From IMG/VR virus record IMGVR_UViG_3300036715_002741, positions 1-52,598 of that record: 52,598 nt of DNA. One strand, given 5' to 3'. Below, piece by piece: positions 3,109 to 50,287 of the stretch. The notes beneath the pieces are model-generated. The model was not told the origin of the DNA, did no database searches, and saw only the letters and a program-made list of their open reading frames with translations. Each line of letters starts with the position of its first letter. Within the stretch, counting starts at the first letter, position 1. Made by a program: the position numbers and the translations under genes. The DNA is from a virus.

Positions 3109-3180
3109 GCGAGCTGTAGCTTAATGGTAGAGTCCAGCTTTTGGGCTGGAGGTTGGGGGTTCGATTCCTCCCGGCTCGCA
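3109..3180 (+). tRNA. tRNA-like gene, anticodon probably UUG (Gln) or UGG (Pro)
   Basis: A cloverleaf can be drawn. The acceptor GCGAGC(T) pairs with (G)GCTCGC, there is a D-arm with TAGCTTAATGGTAGAG, and a GGGGG-TTCGATT-CCTCC T-arm. The anticodon stem CCAGC/GCTGG (3134-3138 with 3145-3149) closes a six-base loop TTTTGG instead of seven, or an eight-base loop if the last C-G pair opens. The overall sequence recalls bacterial tRNA-Pro, but the loop could be read as Gln. No CCA is encoded. It lies in the leader of the rightward early transcript. Confidence 0.65.
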
Positions 3181-3186
3181 CTTAAT

Positions 3187-39928: not shown

Positions 39929-42415
39929 TCACATTCTTATAAAAGAAACTGAAGGGGTTATATTTTGTCGTTCATTATTAAGTATTATAGCTAATGCGTC
40001 ACAATTTGAAACGAGAAATTTATTTGCATAATATACACCATCTTTGTCAACAGTTATATTATAAACTTTTTGCTTTTCTATTTTGCCAGTTAAGCTTTCC
40101 CGCACAAACTCTTCCACAAGTGTTGCCGCCTTTGTTTCCTCCAAAAATCTTTTTTTCAAAAGATCGAGAGCAAATACAACATTTTGCTTGTATGATTTTA
40201 TTTTTAAACTTATAGCACCACTTTTGATAGCATGATGACGAACAAAATCTTCTTTCGAGATTCTTTGCCTTACGCTTACTTTGAAAACTTTTTTTACAAA
40301 ACTCACAAAAGTATTCTTGCTTTTTAAGCCCACCAAACACCTTTTTAGCATGTTCTCTATGCCAAGCTTTCCCCTCGTCACTTCCATGCCACAATGCGGC
40401 TTTTCCTCTAATTTTTGCGAGATGCTTAAGGTGCTCTTTTGTTGTTTCTTGTCCTTTTCTCTTTTCAGCATGTAACGCCAAATGTTCGCTCCTTGAAATA
40501 CGCTCCAAGTTGCTGTAGTCGTTATTAAAACAATCACCATCTTTATGATGAATAATATCATTTTTTTGTACTTTTTTGCCGCTATAAAATTCCCAAATTG
40601 CAACATGCAATCCTTTGGGACGCTTTCTGCCATCATTGGTTGTAGATTGGCTGAGATAATACCTTCCCGTCCCCATAAGTCTATATTGTTTTCCATCAAA
40701 TACAATAATTTTTTGTATCGCCATAATATCAATCCCCCTAAAGACATGATATCAGCATTCGAGTTCATCATCAACGCATCAGCTCGAACAAAACCTGTTT
40801 CTCTTATGAAAAATGGGTGATTATACGTAACAATTGTGTTTTTATAATCCATCACTTCTCTAATTCCAGTGCACTCAGCTTTCAAAACTTTTCTAACGCC
40901 AAAAGGAGTGATTACGAAATCATTGCAATTTACATTTTCTATGTTTTTCATTCCCCATAATGTTGAAATTTTTGTTCCTGCGGCAAAACACACATCATCA
41001 TGCTCACCGTTTGGGAAGTTCGAGCATTCTTCAATAAAAATATCCAACCAAGGGGCTCCCTCAGGCAATAGCACGTTCCCCGCCTCAATAATTGGGGTGA
41101 CAGGCAATACTTTAGCTACCTTATCTTTACCGTGCGCACTAATAGGGATTACACGATTTTGATATCTGGCTATGCTTTTCATTTCGCTGATTAGCGGTGT
41201 GCCATTGGATGCATCCTCAATATACATTTTAAAAGGATTATATTTGTCTGTTTGCTCTATAAAATCACGCTTTGCTTGTGGAAATTCAACGCGTTTGCGA
41301 TACATATCTAAGATGTAAAGTTTATTCCCAACTTTCTTGCCCGTAATCCCTACCGTGAAATCGTTGCTGCTTTTTATTTTAGCCGCAAAATCCCAACCGC
41401 TTACAACTTTACCTTGTGTTGGCAAATCCTCTTTGCGGTAAAATTTCCAATATTCTCGCTTTAAAATTTCTCCTTCTTGCACGCTTGGACGTTGCAAATA
41501 TTGTGTAGCATATCCACGCGCACCCATCATTTCCTTAAGCTGCCTCAATGATTCCCCCTGAAACTTTGGGATATCCCAGAGTATCTGCCCTTTTTCTGCG
41601 CGAGGATCGGCATATAAATCGCTTTTGAATGCGTCCGCAGGATCATATTCGTGGGATAAGTTTATATGTACGCAGTTTTTTAATGGCAAGAATATTGTGT
41701 GATAATCATTGTGCCCTAAACGCTGTCCAATAATGGCCATTCGCATTTTAGACATCACGTCTTGTCGATTATATAGAGTTTGGCGTAAATAATCATTAAC
41801 CCGCAAAAGATCAGCTGCTGAATTAGCTTGCGATACGCTCATAGCGTCATCAAATAGGATTATATCGCCTCTATGCCCTGTGGTTCCGCTACCAGTTGAT
41901 ATTGCTATACGATAACCTTTTTTGTTGTTTAAATAGTTTCCTTTGGTGTTCTGGTCGGACGTTAGAATAAAGTTATTGCCCCAAAAATCTTGGAACCAGT
42001 TACTTTGGATAAGATATCGACTTTTAAGAGTGTCCCTAATCGCCAAGCCTATCTCATGAGAACCAGTAAGAAATCTAACCGAGGGATCTTTAATCCAAAC
42101 CCAAGCAGGAAATAGAACTGATACTACAAGGCTTTTGGCGTGGGCAGGAGGGATTGTAATGTCGAGAAGCTCTAGCTTAAACTCAAACAATGCTTGCAAA
42201 TGGACGCACAAACATTCTATGTGCCAATTGTCTTGATAGGGGGTGGAATCTATTACATGCCAAGCAGCCTTTACAAATTCATAAAAAGAATTCTCATAGA
42301 TCAGCTTTTCAGCGTCTCTACTCCTCTTCCTCAACTCCAAGACTGCTAAGGCTCTGTCCTGCAACGATGGCGCGCAATTCATCGTCTGTAAGTTTTGTAA
42401 AATCGACTTTTGCAT
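39929..42415 (-). CDS. Terminase large subunit precursor interrupted by an intein
   Basis: An 828-residue frame. The N-terminal ATPase has a Walker-A-like PPAHAKS (89-95) and Walker B IILFDD (185-190). The nuclease domain has VSGWDFAAK (338-346) and HDDV (472-475). The intein fills residues 476-804 and is followed by CDALAI, so after splicing the motif becomes HDDVCDALAI and the mature enzyme is about 499 residues. It cuts and pumps DNA into proheads. The frame also stays open through a nested HNH gene. It overlaps the small-terminase gene by 98 bases, and DNA packaging would depend on splicing. Confidence 0.93.
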   Translation of the reverse strand: MQKSILQNLQTMNCAPSLQDRALAVLELRKRSRDAEKLIYENSFYEFVKAAWHVIDSTPYQDNWHIECLCVHLQALFEFKLELLDITIPPAHAKSLVVSVLFPAWVWIKDPSVRFLTGSHEIGLAIRDTLKSRYLIQSNWFQDFWGNNFILTSDQNTKGNYLNNKKGYRIAISTGSGTTGHRGDIILFDDAMSVSQANSAADLLRVNDYLRQTLYNRQDVMSKMRMAIIGQRLGHNDYHTIFLPLKNCVHINLSHEYDPADAFKSDLYADPRAEKGQILWDIPKFQGESLRQLKEMMGARGYATQYLQRPSVQEGEILKREYWKFYRKEDLPTQGKVVSGWDFAAKIKSSNDFTVGITGKKVGNKLYILDMYRKRVEFPQAKRDFIEQTDKYNPFKMYIEDASNGTPLISEMKSIARYQNRVIPISAHGKDKVAKVLPVTPIIEAGNVLLPEGAPWLDIFIEECSNFPNGEHDDVCFAAGTKISTLWGMKNIENVNCNDFVITPFGVRKVLKAECTGIREVMDYKNTIVTYNHPFFIRETGFVRADALMMNSNADIMSLGGLILWRYKKLLYLMENNIDLWGREGIISANLQPMMAESVPKDCMLQFGNFIAAKKYKKMILFIIKMVIVLITTTATWSVFQGANIWRYMLKREKDKKQQKSTLSISQKLEEKPHCGMEVTRGKLGIENMLKRCLVGLKSKNTFVSFVKKVFKVSVRQRISKEDFVRHHAIKSGAISLKIKSYKQNVVFALDLLKKRFLEETKAATLVEEFVRESLTGKIEKQKVYNITVDKDGVYYANKFLVSNCDALAIILNNERQNITPSVSFIRM
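40004..40990 (-). mobile_element. Intein in terminase, inserted in the nuclease active-site motif
   Basis: Residues 476-804 of the precursor. The first block begins CFAAGTKI with nucleophile Cys476, and the Hint-type block B is TIVTYNHPFFI. The last block ends YYANKFLVSN before Cys805 of the host protein. The usual penultimate His is Ser here, a known but uncommon variation that can slow C-terminal cleavage. Between the splicing blocks the terminase frame translates the DNA of an out-of-frame HNH gene (40059-40724) into about 222 residues of no evident fold, which are removed on splicing. Confidence 0.88.
40059..40724 (-). CDS. HNH homing endonuclease nested out of frame inside the intein
   Basis: A 221-residue protein in a different frame from the terminase. 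The N-half is the plan of free-standing phage HNH enzymes: KGLHVAIWEFY, then IIHHKDGDCFNNDYSNLE (catalytic His cluster and Asn) and EHLALH. The C-half has two Cys clusters that look like zinc ribbons (CEFCKKSF...FCSSSC, CCICSRSF...CGRVC). An own ribosome site, AGGGGG, lies 9 bases before the ATG. It probably mobilises the intein by cutting intein-less terminase genes. In most inteins the endonuclease is in frame. Confidence 0.88.
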   Translation of the reverse strand: MAIQKIIVFDGKQYRLMGTGRYYLSQSTTNDGRKRPKGLHVAIWEFYSGKKVQKNDIIHHKDGDCFNNDYSNLERISRSEHLALHAEKRKGQETTKEHLKHLAKIRGKAALWHGSDEGKAWHREHAKKVFGGLKKQEYFCEFCKKSFQSKRKAKNLERRFCSSSCYQKWCYKFKNKIIQAKCCICSRSFEKKIFGGNKGGNTCGRVCAGKLNWQNRKAKSL

Positions 42416-42791
42416 TGATGTTTAATTGCCCAGAATGCTCAATTTGTGATTTTTCATAGTATCCGCGTTTTTTCCCTCGACATTTGAGATGAAATATTAT
42501 AGCGGCAGGGTTTTTGTCTTGTATGAGTTCGTAAAGTTTTCCCTCAACAAAATCTACTGCTATGTTTTCTACATCGTCAATGGCCGCTTTAAATTCTGCG
42601 TCTTCCGCGTACCAGCGATAAAAAGTACATCTTTCTATATTGGCTATACGACAAGCCTTGGTAACAATCCCCATTTGGCTTTTCATCGCCTCAATCACTG
42701 CTTTTTTCCGCATAGCATTTTGATTGCCTAAAAGTTTAGCCTTTGAGATTTTTTCACCCGTTTTATTTTTGTATGTCTTATCGCGCTTCAT
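42318..42791 (-). CDS. Terminase small subunit
   Basis: A protein of 157 residues if it starts at the ATG at 42791; a TTG three codons earlier also opens the frame. An N-terminal basic segment precedes a helix-turn-helix (GIVTKACRIANIERCTFYRWYAE). Then comes the central 'GKLYELIQDKNPAAIIFHLK' helix pair of phage TerS, and an acidic tail. It recognises the packaging site. CATAAT (-10-like) lies only 9 bases before the ATG and no Shine-Dalgarno is seen, so the message could be leaderless. It overlaps the large-subunit gene. Confidence 0.88.
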   Translation of the reverse strand: MKRDKTYKNKTGEKISKAKLLGNQNAMRKKAVIEAMKSQMGIVTKACRIANIERCTFYRWYAEDAEFKAAIDDVENIAVDFVEGKLYELIQDKNPAAIIFHLKCRGKKRGYYEKSQIEHSGQLNINAKVDFTKLTDDELRAIVAGQSLSSLGVEEEE

Positions 42792-42923
42792 AATTATCAA
42801 ATTATGACAGTTTTTAATTAAAAATACAAATATTATTGTGGAATAACCTTAATTTTGGAATAAAGTTTTACTTATCTTAGGGGTATCTTATAGTTAATTT
42901 TTTATATAATATTAAAACATTGC

Positions 42924-42994: not shown

Positions 42995-43426
42995 ATGAAA
43001 ATATCAGTTAAAACTTTAAACAAGAATCTTATAATTGTTGACACAGATAATCATAAAGTAAATATTCCCCATTTACAAATAACAAATTTCAATATTGGCG
43101 TCCCATCGATATCACCCGATTATTATCAATTTTGCGCTTTTGCCCCCAACAAACCGTTAATCTATATACGATTAAACGTTGACGCAGGAGCGTCATTAAC
43201 AAAACAATTATTTCCTCGTCAATTTCCCTTGCGCAATCACATCAAAACTATTAAGGATTTAAATAAAAATCAATTAATCCAAATGCATTTAGATTTTTTA
43301 GAAAATGAAGGCTATATCGATGGAGAAGAATATAACACATTTGAAAAATACGCCAAAGCTAAGTTGAATTTTAAAATTAAACTTTCCCAAACCCCATTCC
43401 AAAAAGGTGATGAATATGCAGATTAA
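42995..43426 (+). CDS. Unknown 143-aa protein
   Basis: A protein with a beta-type N-half (KISVKTLNKNLIIVDTDNHK) and a helical C-half (LIQMHLDFLENEGYIDGEEY). CGAGGAT gives a good ribosome site, and the promoter at 42924-42952 is close upstream. No family is recognised. It leads a three-gene plus run that ends in the ASCH gene. Confidence 0.7.
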   Translation: MKISVKTLNKNLIIVDTDNHKVNIPHLQITNFNIGVPSISPDYYQFCAFAPNKPLIYIRLNVDAGASLTKQLFPRQFPLRNHIKTIKDLNKNQLIQMHLDFLENEGYIDGEEYNTFEKYAKAKLNFKIKLSQTPFQKGDEYAD

Positions 43427-43601
43427 TTCAGAAATAGGGCGAACATTACAAAACGCTAGAATACGCAAACAAAAAACATGCCCAATTTGTAAAAAGATTT
43501 TTATAGGAATAACCATTTCCAAAACTTGCAGCAACGCTTGTAAATGTAAATTATATAGATTTAATAAAATTAAGACAAAAAAGGAGAAAATGAAAGCATG
43601 A
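43416..43601 (+). CDS. Small zinc-finger-like protein
   Basis: I place the start at 43416 because AAAAAGG then has a normal spacing. The 61-residue basic protein has CPICKKIF and later CSNACKC, a four-Cys zinc ribbon of the kind found in small nucleic-acid-binding proteins. Its stop overlaps the ASCH start (ATGA). Confidence 0.65.
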   Translation: MQINSEIGRTLQNARIRKQKTCPICKKIFIGITISKTCSNACKCKLYRFNKIKTKKEKMKA

Positions 43602-43942
43602 AATGTTTATCAATACAACAACCTTACGCGGATTTAATTGCTAATGGAATTAAAACAATAGAATGCCGATCTTGGCAAACTTCCTATCGAGGTGATATTT
43701 TGATTTGTTCCACCAAAAAACCATTTGAAGATTATTTATTGGGACATGCAATTTGTATCGTAACTATTTGTGATATCGTTGAAATGCAACGAGAACATTA
43801 TAAACAAGCTTGTATAAGTAAATTATTTCCATATGCTTGGAAATTAATTAATCCGAAAAAAATAAATCCCTTCCCAATAAAAGGTCAACAAGGTTTTTTT
43901 GAATTGCCTATAAATTTAAAAGATGCTGTAATTCTATTGTAG
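43598..43942 (+). CDS. ASCH-domain protein
   Basis: A 114-residue protein with the ASCH signature: CLSIQQPYADLIANGIKTIECRSW, the strand 'YRGDILICSTKK' and a conserved C-terminal GFFEL. ASCH domains share the PUA/EVE-like fold and are thought to bind RNA or modified nucleotides; some hydrolyse N4-acetylcytidine. Its 3' end overlaps the convergent ABC-GNAT gene by 58 bases, so the two may interfere in expression. A reader or editor of modified bases is the hypothesis. Confidence 0.85.
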   Translation: MKCLSIQQPYADLIANGIKTIECRSWQTSYRGDILICSTKKPFEDYLLGHAICIVTICDIVEMQREHYKQACISKLFPYAWKLINPKKINPFPIKGQQGFFELPINLKDAVILL

Positions 43943-44979
43943 GCAGATTGAAATTTATTTTTATAATTATTGTTACATTTCCCTAAAATTTTAGGAGCAC
44001 TATACATTATCCAATTTGGGCTTTTCATTCTGTGAAAAATCATGGCGGGATGACTTGTTACACTTTGATAACCAAAGCCTTGATCTAAACAATATTGCCC
44101 AACAAAATTTGACAAGATATTCCCTATCCCTATTCCTTGATAATCTGGCAAAACAACTGTTCTATGCTCTCTTTTTGTGTTTTTTAAATGTGGATGTTGA
44201 AAATGAATATAACTAGAAAAAGCGCATGGATTGTCATTTATTAAAGCCACAAAACATTGCGCAGAATTAGATAATACACCACTCAAATAGTGATGGCTTT
44301 TAAACATTTGCCAGAGAGAACGTGAGCATTTATAGATTTCCAGTTGAATTTGAGGTCGCTGAAGACACCCCCGAAAATATTGATTGGAGCCTACATCATA
44401 ATACCAATCTGGCTGAAGCCATTCGATAATATCATAATGACAACTAACCGCTACAATCTTCTTTTTATTTTTACGAATATTTTTTTGAATAGCTGCGCAT
44501 CCAATTTGCGCTACATTTCTGTCTACCACTGAAGTAAATTCGTCAACAATAGTTAATTGGTTTTTCGACATTAAAATTCTAGCCATTTCAGCTCTAAATT
44601 TTTGCCCATTAGAAAGTTTATCAAAAGGCAATAACCAAGATGGAGGCGATGAAAATCCAACGTGCGACAAAGCATTTACAATATCGTTAATATCTAATTC
44701 TTTTGGGAAATCATCGAGAAAAGAAGTTTTTCCCCATTGAAATCCATTATGATAATTTTCTTCTCCAAATATTTTTTTAGATAAAATTGTTTTCCCTGCC
44801 CCAGATGCCCCAACAATCAACCCAATATTCCAATCGTCATTTAATTCCTCAATAGGTAAATCAACATTCCATTCTTTATAAAGTTTTTCTTGAGGAGGTA
44901 AATCAAACAATCCAGCTATTTTAGCTGAACGAAAAGATTCAATATAAGGAGTTTCTATTTTATAATTAAATTTTGGCAT
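43885..44979 (-). CDS. Soluble ABC-ATPase fused to GNAT acetyltransferase
   Basis: A 364-residue fusion. Residues 1-205 form a complete ABC ATPase: Walker A GASGAGKT (57-64), signature LSNGQ (122-126), Walker B TIVDE (143-147), switch His181. No membrane segment follows, so it is not a transporter. Residues about 215-345 form a GNAT domain with acetyl-CoA loop QGIGIG (281-286). Phage GNATs of this kind include Mu Mom, which modifies adenine in DNA. An ATP-driven, DNA-acting modifier is therefore a reasonable guess. It begins 3 bases after the ParB-like gene ends. Confidence 0.85.
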   Translation of the reverse strand: MPKFNYKIETPYIESFRSAKIAGLFDLPPQEKLYKEWNVDLPIEELNDDWNIGLIVGASGAGKTILSKKIFGEENYHNGFQWGKTSFLDDFPKELDINDIVNALSHVGFSSPPSWLLPFDKLSNGQKFRAEMARILMSKNQLTIVDEFTSVVDRNVAQIGCAAIQKNIRKNKKKIVAVSCHYDIIEWLQPDWYYDVGSNQYFRGCLQRPQIQLEIYKCSRSLWQMFKSHHYLSGVLSNSAQCFVALINDNPCAFSSYIHFQHPHLKNTKREHRTVVLPDYQGIGIGNILSNFVGQYCLDQGFGYQSVTSHPAMIFHRMKSPNWIMYSAPKILGKCNNNYKNKFQSAYNRITASFKFIGNSKKPC

Positions 44980-44982
44980 TGT

Positions 44983-45528
44983 TTATATTGATAAAATTTT
45001 AAGTTTTGTATATCCCATTTCCTGTAATTGCGAATAAAGTTCTTGCTGTTGTTGCTCATTTTCAACGTCAACAATAATTGCATATTTTTCATGATACGCT
45101 TCTTCAGTATCTTTTGGATCGATTTTTTCTCTAATTACTTCTAATTTCAAATCCGAATCTTTAAAGCCCACGTCTTGCAGTAAATCAATATCAAACGTAG
45201 ACAACAAATCCATGTCCCATTCGCCAGTATTTTTATTACTTCTAAGCATATATTCACTGGCTTCTTCCTTGGTTAGTTCCCTGCTGGGTACGCGCACATC
45301 AATAACTTCTTCCTGTCTCCCTAACTGCCTCATAATATTCAAACGCATGTGACCGGCAAGAATGGTTTGATCGGTGTTAATTGCTGGTATTTCAGCAAGA
45401 TCAAATTTAGATATTGATTTTTTTAATTCTTTGGCTTGCTTGTCTGTTAGTTGTCGAGGGTTGTTTTCGAAAGGGATTAAATCTGAAATCTTGCGTTGTT
45501 GCGTTGACCAAGTTATTTTTTTTGACAT
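44983..45528 (-). CDS. ParB/sulfiredoxin-fold protein
   Basis: A 181-residue protein. The N-terminal domain has ENNPRQLTDKQ (NPR at 23-25) and GHMRLN (59-64), the nucleotide-binding motifs of the ParB/Srx fold, and lacks a ParB HTH. Phage ParB-like domains can act as nucleases, CTPases or, in base hypermodification, as nucleotide-activating enzymes. It is the upstream partner of the ABC-GNAT gene. No Shine-Dalgarno is visible before the ATG, which follows a 400-base control region. Confidence 0.85.
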   Translation of the reverse strand: MSKKITWSTQQRKISDLIPFENNPRQLTDKQAKELKKSISKFDLAEIPAINTDQTILAGHMRLNIMRQLGRQEEVIDVRVPSRELTKEEASEYMLRSNKNTGEWDMDLLSTFDIDLLQDVGFKDSDLKLEVIREKIDPKDTEEAYHEKYAIIVDVENEQQQQELYSQLQEMGYTKLKILSI

Positions 45529-45934: not shown

Positions 45935-46321
45935 TTATTTCAAAACCGAGAAAAGCACCTTTTTTAATTCATCAATTGTTATTAATTCGGCTTTTTCGTT
46001 AGTCAAACGTAAAACATTAAACTTGCGAAGATTTTTCAAGTACCAATCTTTTTTGTTATCTTTAATTTTTTGCTCAAAAGAATCGTGCACATCTCCGTCT
46101 ATTTCTATACATAATTTATATGGTTTTGGCAAATAAAAATCTATAATATAGAAGCTATAATCATTAAAAAACCCCTTTTGTTCAAAAAATTTTATTCCAA
46201 GTTCAAGAAGTTTATTTTTAAAAATAGACTCTGATTTAGTTGGATTGTTTTTTAATTTTGTTCTAAATTTTGACAATAATATTTGTTGATTCCCTGGAAC
46301 CTTTCTTTTCAATCTTGCCAT
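45935..46321 (-). CDS. Vsr/DUF559-like endonuclease
   Basis: A 128-residue basic protein with the core of the Vsr/DUF559 restriction-like fold: YIIDFYLP, then IEIDGDVHDSFEQKIKDNKK with Asp, Asp and His placed as in Vsr-type sites. Free-standing nucleases of this type in phages act as homing enzymes or cut competing DNA; mismatch repair is the host use. It lies below the ferritin gene with a weak ribosome site. Confidence 0.8.
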   Translation of the reverse strand: MARLKRKVPGNQQILLSKFRTKLKNNPTKSESIFKNKLLELGIKFFEQKGFFNDYSFYIIDFYLPKPYKLCIEIDGDVHDSFEQKIKDNKKDWYLKNLRKFNVLRLTNEKAELITIDELKKVLFSVLK

Positions 46322-49632: not shown

Positions 49633-49874
49633 GAAAAAAATGTGATTTTATGCATATATGCAAATATAGCGACGCTCAAGATGGAGACGACACCAAAAAG
49701 CAAAGAGAGTTAGAAGCAAATTATTTTGCAGCTTGCCTGTTGGTTCCAGAACATAAATTGCGTCAATTATACAATGCAACAAAAGATATTTCATTGATAG
49801 CCAATTATTTCGGCGTTTCTCGCCCTGTAATTTTACTTAGAATCAACTATTTAAAAATTAAAGCTAATGGATGA
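49629..49874 (+). pseudogene. Truncated ImmA/IrrE-type metalloprotease fragment
   Basis: An 81-residue frame that matches only the C-terminal part of ImmA/IrrE proteins: ELEANYFAACLLVPEHKLRQL, then IANYFGVSRPVILLRI. The HExxH zinc site that should lie upstream is absent from this frame and from the DNA before it. It is either a remnant of a lysogeny-control gene or a shortened protein that still binds a repressor. Confidence 0.65.
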
Positions 49875-50287
49875 TCGAAATGAAAAAATTCAATGGTTTG
49901 ATGACTAGCCTAAGTCCGCATTGGGGAACTCCAAAAGCATTATATGATCAATTAAACCAAGAGTTTAATTTTAACTTTGATCCTTGCCCGCTTAATTGCT
50001 TGGATTTTGACGGTTTAAGTTGCGAATGGGGTAGCTCTACGTTTTGCAATCCACCTTATGGCAGAGAAATAACAAAATGGATAGAGAAAGCGTATAACGA
50101 AAGCCTGATTTTAGGAAAAACAGTTGTATTGTTAATACCAGCCAGAACAGATACTAAATGGTGGCATAATTACATCATGAAAGCGTATGAAATAAGATTT
50201 ATTAAGGGACGTCTTAAATTTGGGGATGCTAAAAATAACGCTCCTTTTCCCTCGGTAGTTGTAATATTTAAACCCTGCTATTTTTAA
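49871..50287 (+). CDS. DNA N6-adenine methyltransferase (phage Dam family)
   Basis: A 138-residue protein of the compact phage Dam family: WGTPKALYDQLN, DPCPLNC, CNPPYG (catalytic NPPY at 60-63) and the conserved VVLLIPARTDTKWWH and RFIKGRLKFG blocks. It transfers a methyl group from AdoMet to adenine N6, protecting phage DNA from restriction or marking it. It is the last gene of the plus run, coupled by ATGA to the ImmA fragment. Confidence 0.92.
   Translation: MIEMKKFNGLMTSLSPHWGTPKALYDQLNQEFNFNFDPCPLNCLDFDGLSCEWGSSTFCNPPYGREITKWIEKAYNESLILGKTVVLLIPARTDTKWWHNYIMKAYEIRFIKGRLKFGDAKNNAPFPSVVVIFKPCYF

Follow-up and report, generated by a model that had tools for sequence, protein, structure and literature searches.

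What does a phage gain from a soluble ABC ATPase fused to a GNAT acyltransferase, encoded directly behind a ParB-like gene and facing an ASCH gene? This arrangement occurs in the window, by which we mean the whole stretch of DNA analyzed here, a 52.6-kb virus record, and a preliminary description had proposed that the genes make up a DNA-modification module. The main idea is a re-derivation, because the prediction has already been published: section 3.4.7 of Iyer et al. 2021 (PMC7824862) names phage pT24 as an example of a GNAT coupled to an ABC ATPase, predicts that such a pair places an acyl group, as yet uncharacterised, on a base in DNA, and credits the prediction to earlier work of the same authors (Iyer, Aravind and colleagues). 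The window gene belongs to this predicted family (PHROG 11143; COG2401/MK0520-type annotation) and matches the pT24 gene with 38% identity over 85%. In its section on ABC-GNAT proteins, the 2021 paper makes no mention of ParB, Com, an exchange with Mom, PanD and CoA-transferase, formyltransferase or ASCH, although the earlier source may contain some of these. The publications examined on LE3/LE4 and Porphyromonas phages contain no DNA-modification data for the module genes. The natural exchange with Mom, the link to Com and the acyl-CoA supply operon described below were not found in the literature examined and appear to be new.

A compact gene set next to the terminase genes

The three ORFs lie where the preliminary description had placed them, and their domain matches agree with its assignments. 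On the minus strand, a 181-residue ParB/Srx-like protein (44983-45528; PHROG 620, E = 7.1e-22) is followed by the 364-residue ABC-GNAT fusion (43885-44979; PHROG 11143, E = 7e-99, with ABC_tran and Acetyltransf matches), with a gap of 3 nt between the ParB-like stop codon and the ABC-GNAT ATG. A 114-residue ASCH-domain protein, which we treat as an optional accessory, is encoded on the plus strand (43598-43942; PF04266, E = 1.3e-10), and its ORF and that of ABC-GNAT converge with a 58-nt overlap. The ABC-GNAT gene does therefore directly follow the ParB-like gene and face the ASCH gene, as had been described.

Located 3' of the module are the minus-strand genes for the terminase small subunit (42318-42800; PHROG 309, E = 5e-11) and the terminase large subunit, which has an intein-like insert (39929-42415; PF17289, E = 6.3e-17). 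Terminase gene clusters lie downstream of ABC-GNAT in more than 100 loci, and the terminase genes are the usual genomic position marker and context for the module, with no part in its chemistry. Many phage genes are found next to the terminase, which counts against reading the module as a DNA writer. The large-subunit insert spans residues 476-804 (~329 residues; window 40004-40990, minus strand), begins with CFAAGTKIS and ends with VSN before a cysteine; its Hint match is weak.

The ABC-GNAT protein keeps its ATPase and acyl-CoA motifs

The window protein divides into an ABC-type ATPase (residues ~1-205) and a GNAT acyltransferase (residues ~210-357). Its Walker A motif (GASGAGKT, 57-64), signature (LSNGQ, 122-126), Walker B and catalytic glutamate (D146-E147), D-loop (SVVDR) and H-loop (H181) bear out the proposal of a soluble ABC ATPase with intact catalytic motifs fused to a GNAT. 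The GNAT part has a QGxGxG acyl-CoA loop (Q281-G-I-G-I-G286), and the ABC and GNAT motifs are nearly all invariant among 71 diverse homologues. AlphaFold2 models are confident for both the full-length protein (pLDDT 92.5) and the GNAT domain alone (pLDDT 90.0).

The PHROG 11143 match covers the whole length of the protein, and relatives are widespread: we found them in 66 phage records, at least 595 IMG/VR stretches and 425 bacterial and archaeal genome stretches. The IMG/VR relatives were found with an alignment query; the window ABC-GNAT as a single-protein query gave no viral-contig matches. In P335, Oenococcus, MismyG and 9184, the ABC and GNAT parts are two adjacent genes instead of a fusion. 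An ABC-GNAT-PanD fusion in locus L135 was only apparent, the long ORF running in another reading frame.

A ParB-like gene accompanies ABC-GNAT

Directly upstream of ABC-GNAT there is a ParB-like gene in 91 of 98 loci, the start usually being overlapped by 22 nt. Three samples of ABC-GNAT relatives gave a nearby ParB-like gene in 79/81, 76/80 and 76/80 cases, and the adjacent gene is missing in some jumbo and T4-like members, which weighs against the pair as a DNA writer. Among control loci sharing one terminase family, a ParB-like gene was upstream in all four with ABC-GNAT, compared to 7 of 46 without it.

The window ParB-like protein has no match to Pfam ParB_N, a family that its homologue in phage Jace does reach, with E = 1.4e-5, just under the cut-off; the homology of its N-terminal domain to ParB was recovered through PHROG 620. 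Its C-terminal domain of ~40 residues (IIVDVENEQQQQELYSQLQEMGYTKLKIL) is common to the family. In the clade that carries a formyltransferase, the upstream gene encodes fewer than 90 residues, approximately the C-terminal ParB domain only, in 41 of 75 loci, and we therefore regard this domain as the conserved part of the partner.

ABC-GNAT and Mom share a locus and neighbors but not a family

Two Porphyromonas gingivalis Mu-like prophages are 91.5% identical over the 2.8 kb to the left of their right-end cassette and 83% identical across the last 93 bp to its right. Between these matching flanks, one prophage has Mom (PF25680, E = 5.9e-56), and at the Mom position its sibling has a ParB C-terminal domain, ABC-GNAT and a formyltransferase. 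In Porphyromonas Mu-like phages, enzymes of the Mom and ABC-GNAT types replace one another at the mom locus.

The two also share upstream genes. In 17 Mu-like ABC-GNAT loci, the gene immediately upstream encodes a Com-family zinc ribbon and overlaps the one that follows it, as com and mom do in Mu; one tested member matched PF10122 with E = 2.7e-13, and Mu Com itself scored 2.7e-9. Com is the translational activator of mom and recognizes the RNA motif CC(N)2-3GAG (PMC6483171). This motif occurs just upstream in 17/17 of the Com-bearing loci, compared to 5.4 expected from shuffles, which ignore that the region is partly Com-coding. Of 76 viral Mom loci (L347-L426, one Mom clade), 75 in turn have a ParB-like gene immediately before Mom. 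The Mom partners that we read as examples end in a zinc ribbon instead of the C-terminal domain of the ABC-GNAT type. Pairing with a ParB-like protein thus seems to be a general feature of these modifiers.

A specific tie between the window GNAT and Mom, which the preliminary description had drawn, was not supported. Pfam and PHROG scans gave no Mom-family match for the window GNAT, and hhalign against the Mom profile (PF25680) gave E = 0.094 with a probability of 0.6%, over only a stretch in which HHYLS and KHYS are aligned. The closest structures in a fold search were ordinary GNATs, protein N-terminal and small-molecule acetyltransferases, with Z scores of 13-15; Mom (8bv8) was absent from the PDB matches listed, and a Mom model ranked 46th in a viral library. 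Grouping with such acetylases had been named beforehand as evidence against DNA modification, and it is formally what we see, but all GNATs share this fold, so the comparison cannot discriminate between substrates. Mom of phage Mu (PF25680; PDB 8bv8, 'Methylcarbamoylase mom') and ABC-GNAT are therefore alike in being phage-encoded members of the GNAT superfamily that follow a ParB-like gene (for Mom, in one clade), come after Com in Mu-like phages and take up the same slot in Porphyromonas phages. They differ in that ABC-GNAT forms a separate GNAT family with no detectable profile homology to Mom, a fused ABC ATPase and a different ParB C-terminal domain. We conclude that ABC-GNAT is Mom-like by context yet outside the Mom family.

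Because the GNAT domain resembles protein N-terminal and small-molecule acetyltransferases and lacks a Mom match, protein and RNA substrates have to be weighed as well. ABC-GNAT might acylate a protein of the host or of the phage, in the manner of phiKMV Rac, whose target is RNA polymerase, or of RimI/Nat enzymes, whose targets are N-termini; the ABC domain would then regulate it by means of ATP, and ParB would direct it to the nucleoid. Phage GNATs that act on RNA polymerase are known (PMC7824862) and the fold matches fit protein N-alpha and small-molecule acetylases, but generic similarity of this kind is expected of any GNAT, and protein acylation leaves the exchange at the mom locus, the upstream Com and the ParB-Mom pairing unexplained; we consider it unlikely. 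Still less probable, in our judgment, is an ATP-driven acylation of RNA bases that would protect phage translation, in the manner of TmcA/NAT10 acetylation of cytidine in tRNA and rRNA. TmcA/NAT10 enzymes likewise join an ATPase and a GNAT in one protein that acts on a base, and RNA cytidine acetyltransferase chains are among the weak profile matches (E = 0.2). However, those matches are not significant, the TmcA helicase module differs from an ABC ATPase, and ParB, Com and the exchange with Mom all indicate DNA.

Candidate acyl-CoA supply genes follow ABC-GNAT in relatives

In some relatives, ABC-GNAT is followed by an aspartate decarboxylase, PanD (PF02261), and then by a class III CoA-transferase-like gene (PF02515). 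Searching IMG/VR with PanD returned 23 loci, 22 of which have ABC-GNAT adjoining (15 of 16 without near-copies). The corresponding search with CoA-transferase returned 26 loci, and ABC-GNAT adjoins PanD/CoA-transferase in 25 of them (19 of 20 without near-copies). One of the two loci that lack ABC-GNAT in these searches, L471, ends at a contig edge. ABC-GNAT is nearly always directly upstream, mostly with 4-nt overlaps. Both enzymes retain catalytic residues: PanD keeps K8, G23-S24, T56 and Y57, which we take to be the equivalents of the E. coli catalytic residues, and the CoA-transferase keeps the invariant aspartate in GDT and a SFDxxAQA motif. The operon of ParB, ABC-GNAT, PanD and CoA-transferase suggests a supply of beta-alanyl-CoA. 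Some of the 20 distinct CoA-transferase loci (L453, L457, L461 and L470) lack PanD, and host beta-alanine could therefore suffice. The isolated Gordonia/Rhodococcus phage Jace (L003/L446) has the full set of ParB, ABC-GNAT, PanD, CoA-transferase and convergent ASCH. Among other cultured phages, Leptospira phage LE4 and Lactococcus phage P335 carry just the core, whereas Gordonia phage BiggityBass and Pseudomonas phage Komp_PAO1_1 have the variant with a formyltransferase.

In another subclade, the gene immediately after ABC-GNAT encodes a formyltransferase (PHROG 9240) in 63 of 80 loci. The usual catalytic set of formyltransferases is Asn-His-Asp, of which the histidine and aspartate are kept and the asparagine position is glycine. 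The window has no PanD, CoA-transferase or formyltransferase.

The ASCH gene is an optional accessory

The preliminary description had also counted the ASCH gene among the module genes. Using ASCH profiles built from separate seeds and from the neighbor cluster, we found that most ABC-GNAT relatives have no ASCH gene nearby, so it is not a core component. Where it does occur, its placement is regular. Of 25 ASCH genes found in ABC-GNAT loci, 15 start no more than 600 nt from the 3' end of ABC-GNAT, every one of them convergent, and the density of convergent ASCH genes just 3' of ABC-GNAT is ~14 times the background of the same loci. Given this density and the frequent adjacency of ParB, the arrangement of the module exceeds chance. 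Convergent placement recurs across phyla and on separate branches, and the ASCH label changes at least seven times on the ABC-GNAT tree, indicating repeated gain or loss; within its own clade of 20 rows, none but the window carries ASCH. A convergent ASCH gene also ends 8 of the 20 distinct CoA-transferase loci. In the terminase family used as a control, all four loci that carry ABC-GNAT also have ASCH, compared to none of the 46 others; the four are close relatives, so the p-value makes them look more independent than they are.

The ASCH gene could instead be an unrelated neighbor that came with the plus-strand ORFs at 42995-43601, leaving ParB and ABC-GNAT as the whole module. We give this reading a substantial, if minority, share of the probability: besides its absence near most ABC-GNAT relatives, 84 phage records have an ASCH gene, and the majority of these are not ABC-GNAT records. 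Against it stand the uniform orientation and density of the 15 near genes, the repeated label changes, the distribution within the one terminase family and the closure of CoA-transferase loci. ASCH is plausibly an accessory of ParB/ABC-GNAT that would serve as a reader, a deacylase or a nucleotide clean-up enzyme.

ASCH enzymes of the YqfB type hydrolyze N4-acyl groups of cytidine and deoxycytidine nucleosides (PMC9599836), and the window protein shares the ASCH domain with these amidohydrolases. It differs in belonging to a GxKxxE(N/C)R subfamily: the conserved motif is GxKxxENR, and the window reads GIKTIECRSW, with K19, E22 and R24 conserved. The YqfB Lys-Thr-Glu triad (K21, T24, E74) was not found in the window ASCH, which keeps Lys19 and Arg24 and has Glu22 at the position of the nucleophilic Thr24. 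YqfB activity thus cannot be assumed for the window protein. Our guess, held at somewhat short of even confidence, is that the convergent ASCH protein handles the product of the module, either by binding it or by cleaving the acyl amide from stray bases or nucleotides through hydrolysis.

A predicted DNA-base acyl writer

Taken together, the exchange with Mom, the Com genes, the ParB-Mom pairing and the supply genes uphold the proposed role of ParB/ABC-GNAT in DNA modification, while its supposed ties to Mom by homology and to a Dam methylase are not supported. We consider it likely that ParB/ABC-GNAT is a phage DNA-base acyl writer that hides phage DNA from host restriction. We infer the substrate, the acyl group, the role of ATP and the protection from restriction as follows. 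The GNAT domain would take an acyl group from acyl-CoA and place it on an exocyclic amine of a phage DNA base, and the fused ABC ATPase and DNA-bound ParB-like subunit may spend ATP either in loading the enzyme onto DNA or in exposing the base. The modified phage DNA would then resist host restriction, much as Mu DNA does through Mom. In one sublineage, beta-alanyl-CoA would come from PanD and the class III CoA-transferase; in another, the formyltransferase may tailor or supply the transferred group, and the window phage presumably draws on host acyl-CoA.

A more specific version, which we put forward tentatively and regard as rather doubtful as a whole, is that the family writes an amino-acyl group on DNA bases by an ATP-coupled, Mom-independent route. 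L-Aspartate would be converted to beta-alanine by PanD, then to beta-alanyl-CoA by the CoA-transferase, and the group passed to the base; formyltransferase would act elsewhere in the family, and ASCH would remove or recognize the adduct. If the DNA-writer reading is true, there is a second, widespread family of DNA-acylating phage enzymes outside Mom, whose members number in the hundreds among viral contigs and bacterial genomes. It would come with named candidate pathways, give a reason for the aspartate decarboxylase, CoA-transferase and formyltransferase genes in phages, point to possible new hypermodified DNA bases and means of counter-restriction, and make ASCH proteins possible readers or erasers.

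Neighboring genes in the window

A short N6-adenine methylase of the Dam family is encoded at 49871-50287 on the plus strand (PF05869, E = 3.7e-19, with an NPPY motif). The preliminary description had joined it to the module; it lies 4.3 kb away on the opposite strand, with co-occurrence as the one thing connecting them, and we do not count it as a member.

A DUF559 Vsr-like nuclease gene (45935-46321, minus strand) lies upstream of the ParB-like gene on the same strand. Together with the Mom-nuclease domain fusions of jumbo phages (PMC7824862), its position would fit a superinfection-exclusion or defense module in which self-DNA is modified and the nuclease cuts competitors. We regard this as highly improbable, as DUF559 does not recur near other ABC-GNAT genes in ~260 loci and a PADLOC scan gave only partial, domain-level matches. 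For the same reason, that a cognate nuclease is not conserved with the modifier across these loci, DUF559 was rejected as a restriction partner.

Two further genes were noted in the window. A ferritin/Dps-like phage gene (46331-46819, minus strand; PF00210, E = 1.6e-27) lies upstream of the ParB-like gene, and a tRNA-like gene at 3109-3181 on the plus strand has an odd, two-base anticodon call.
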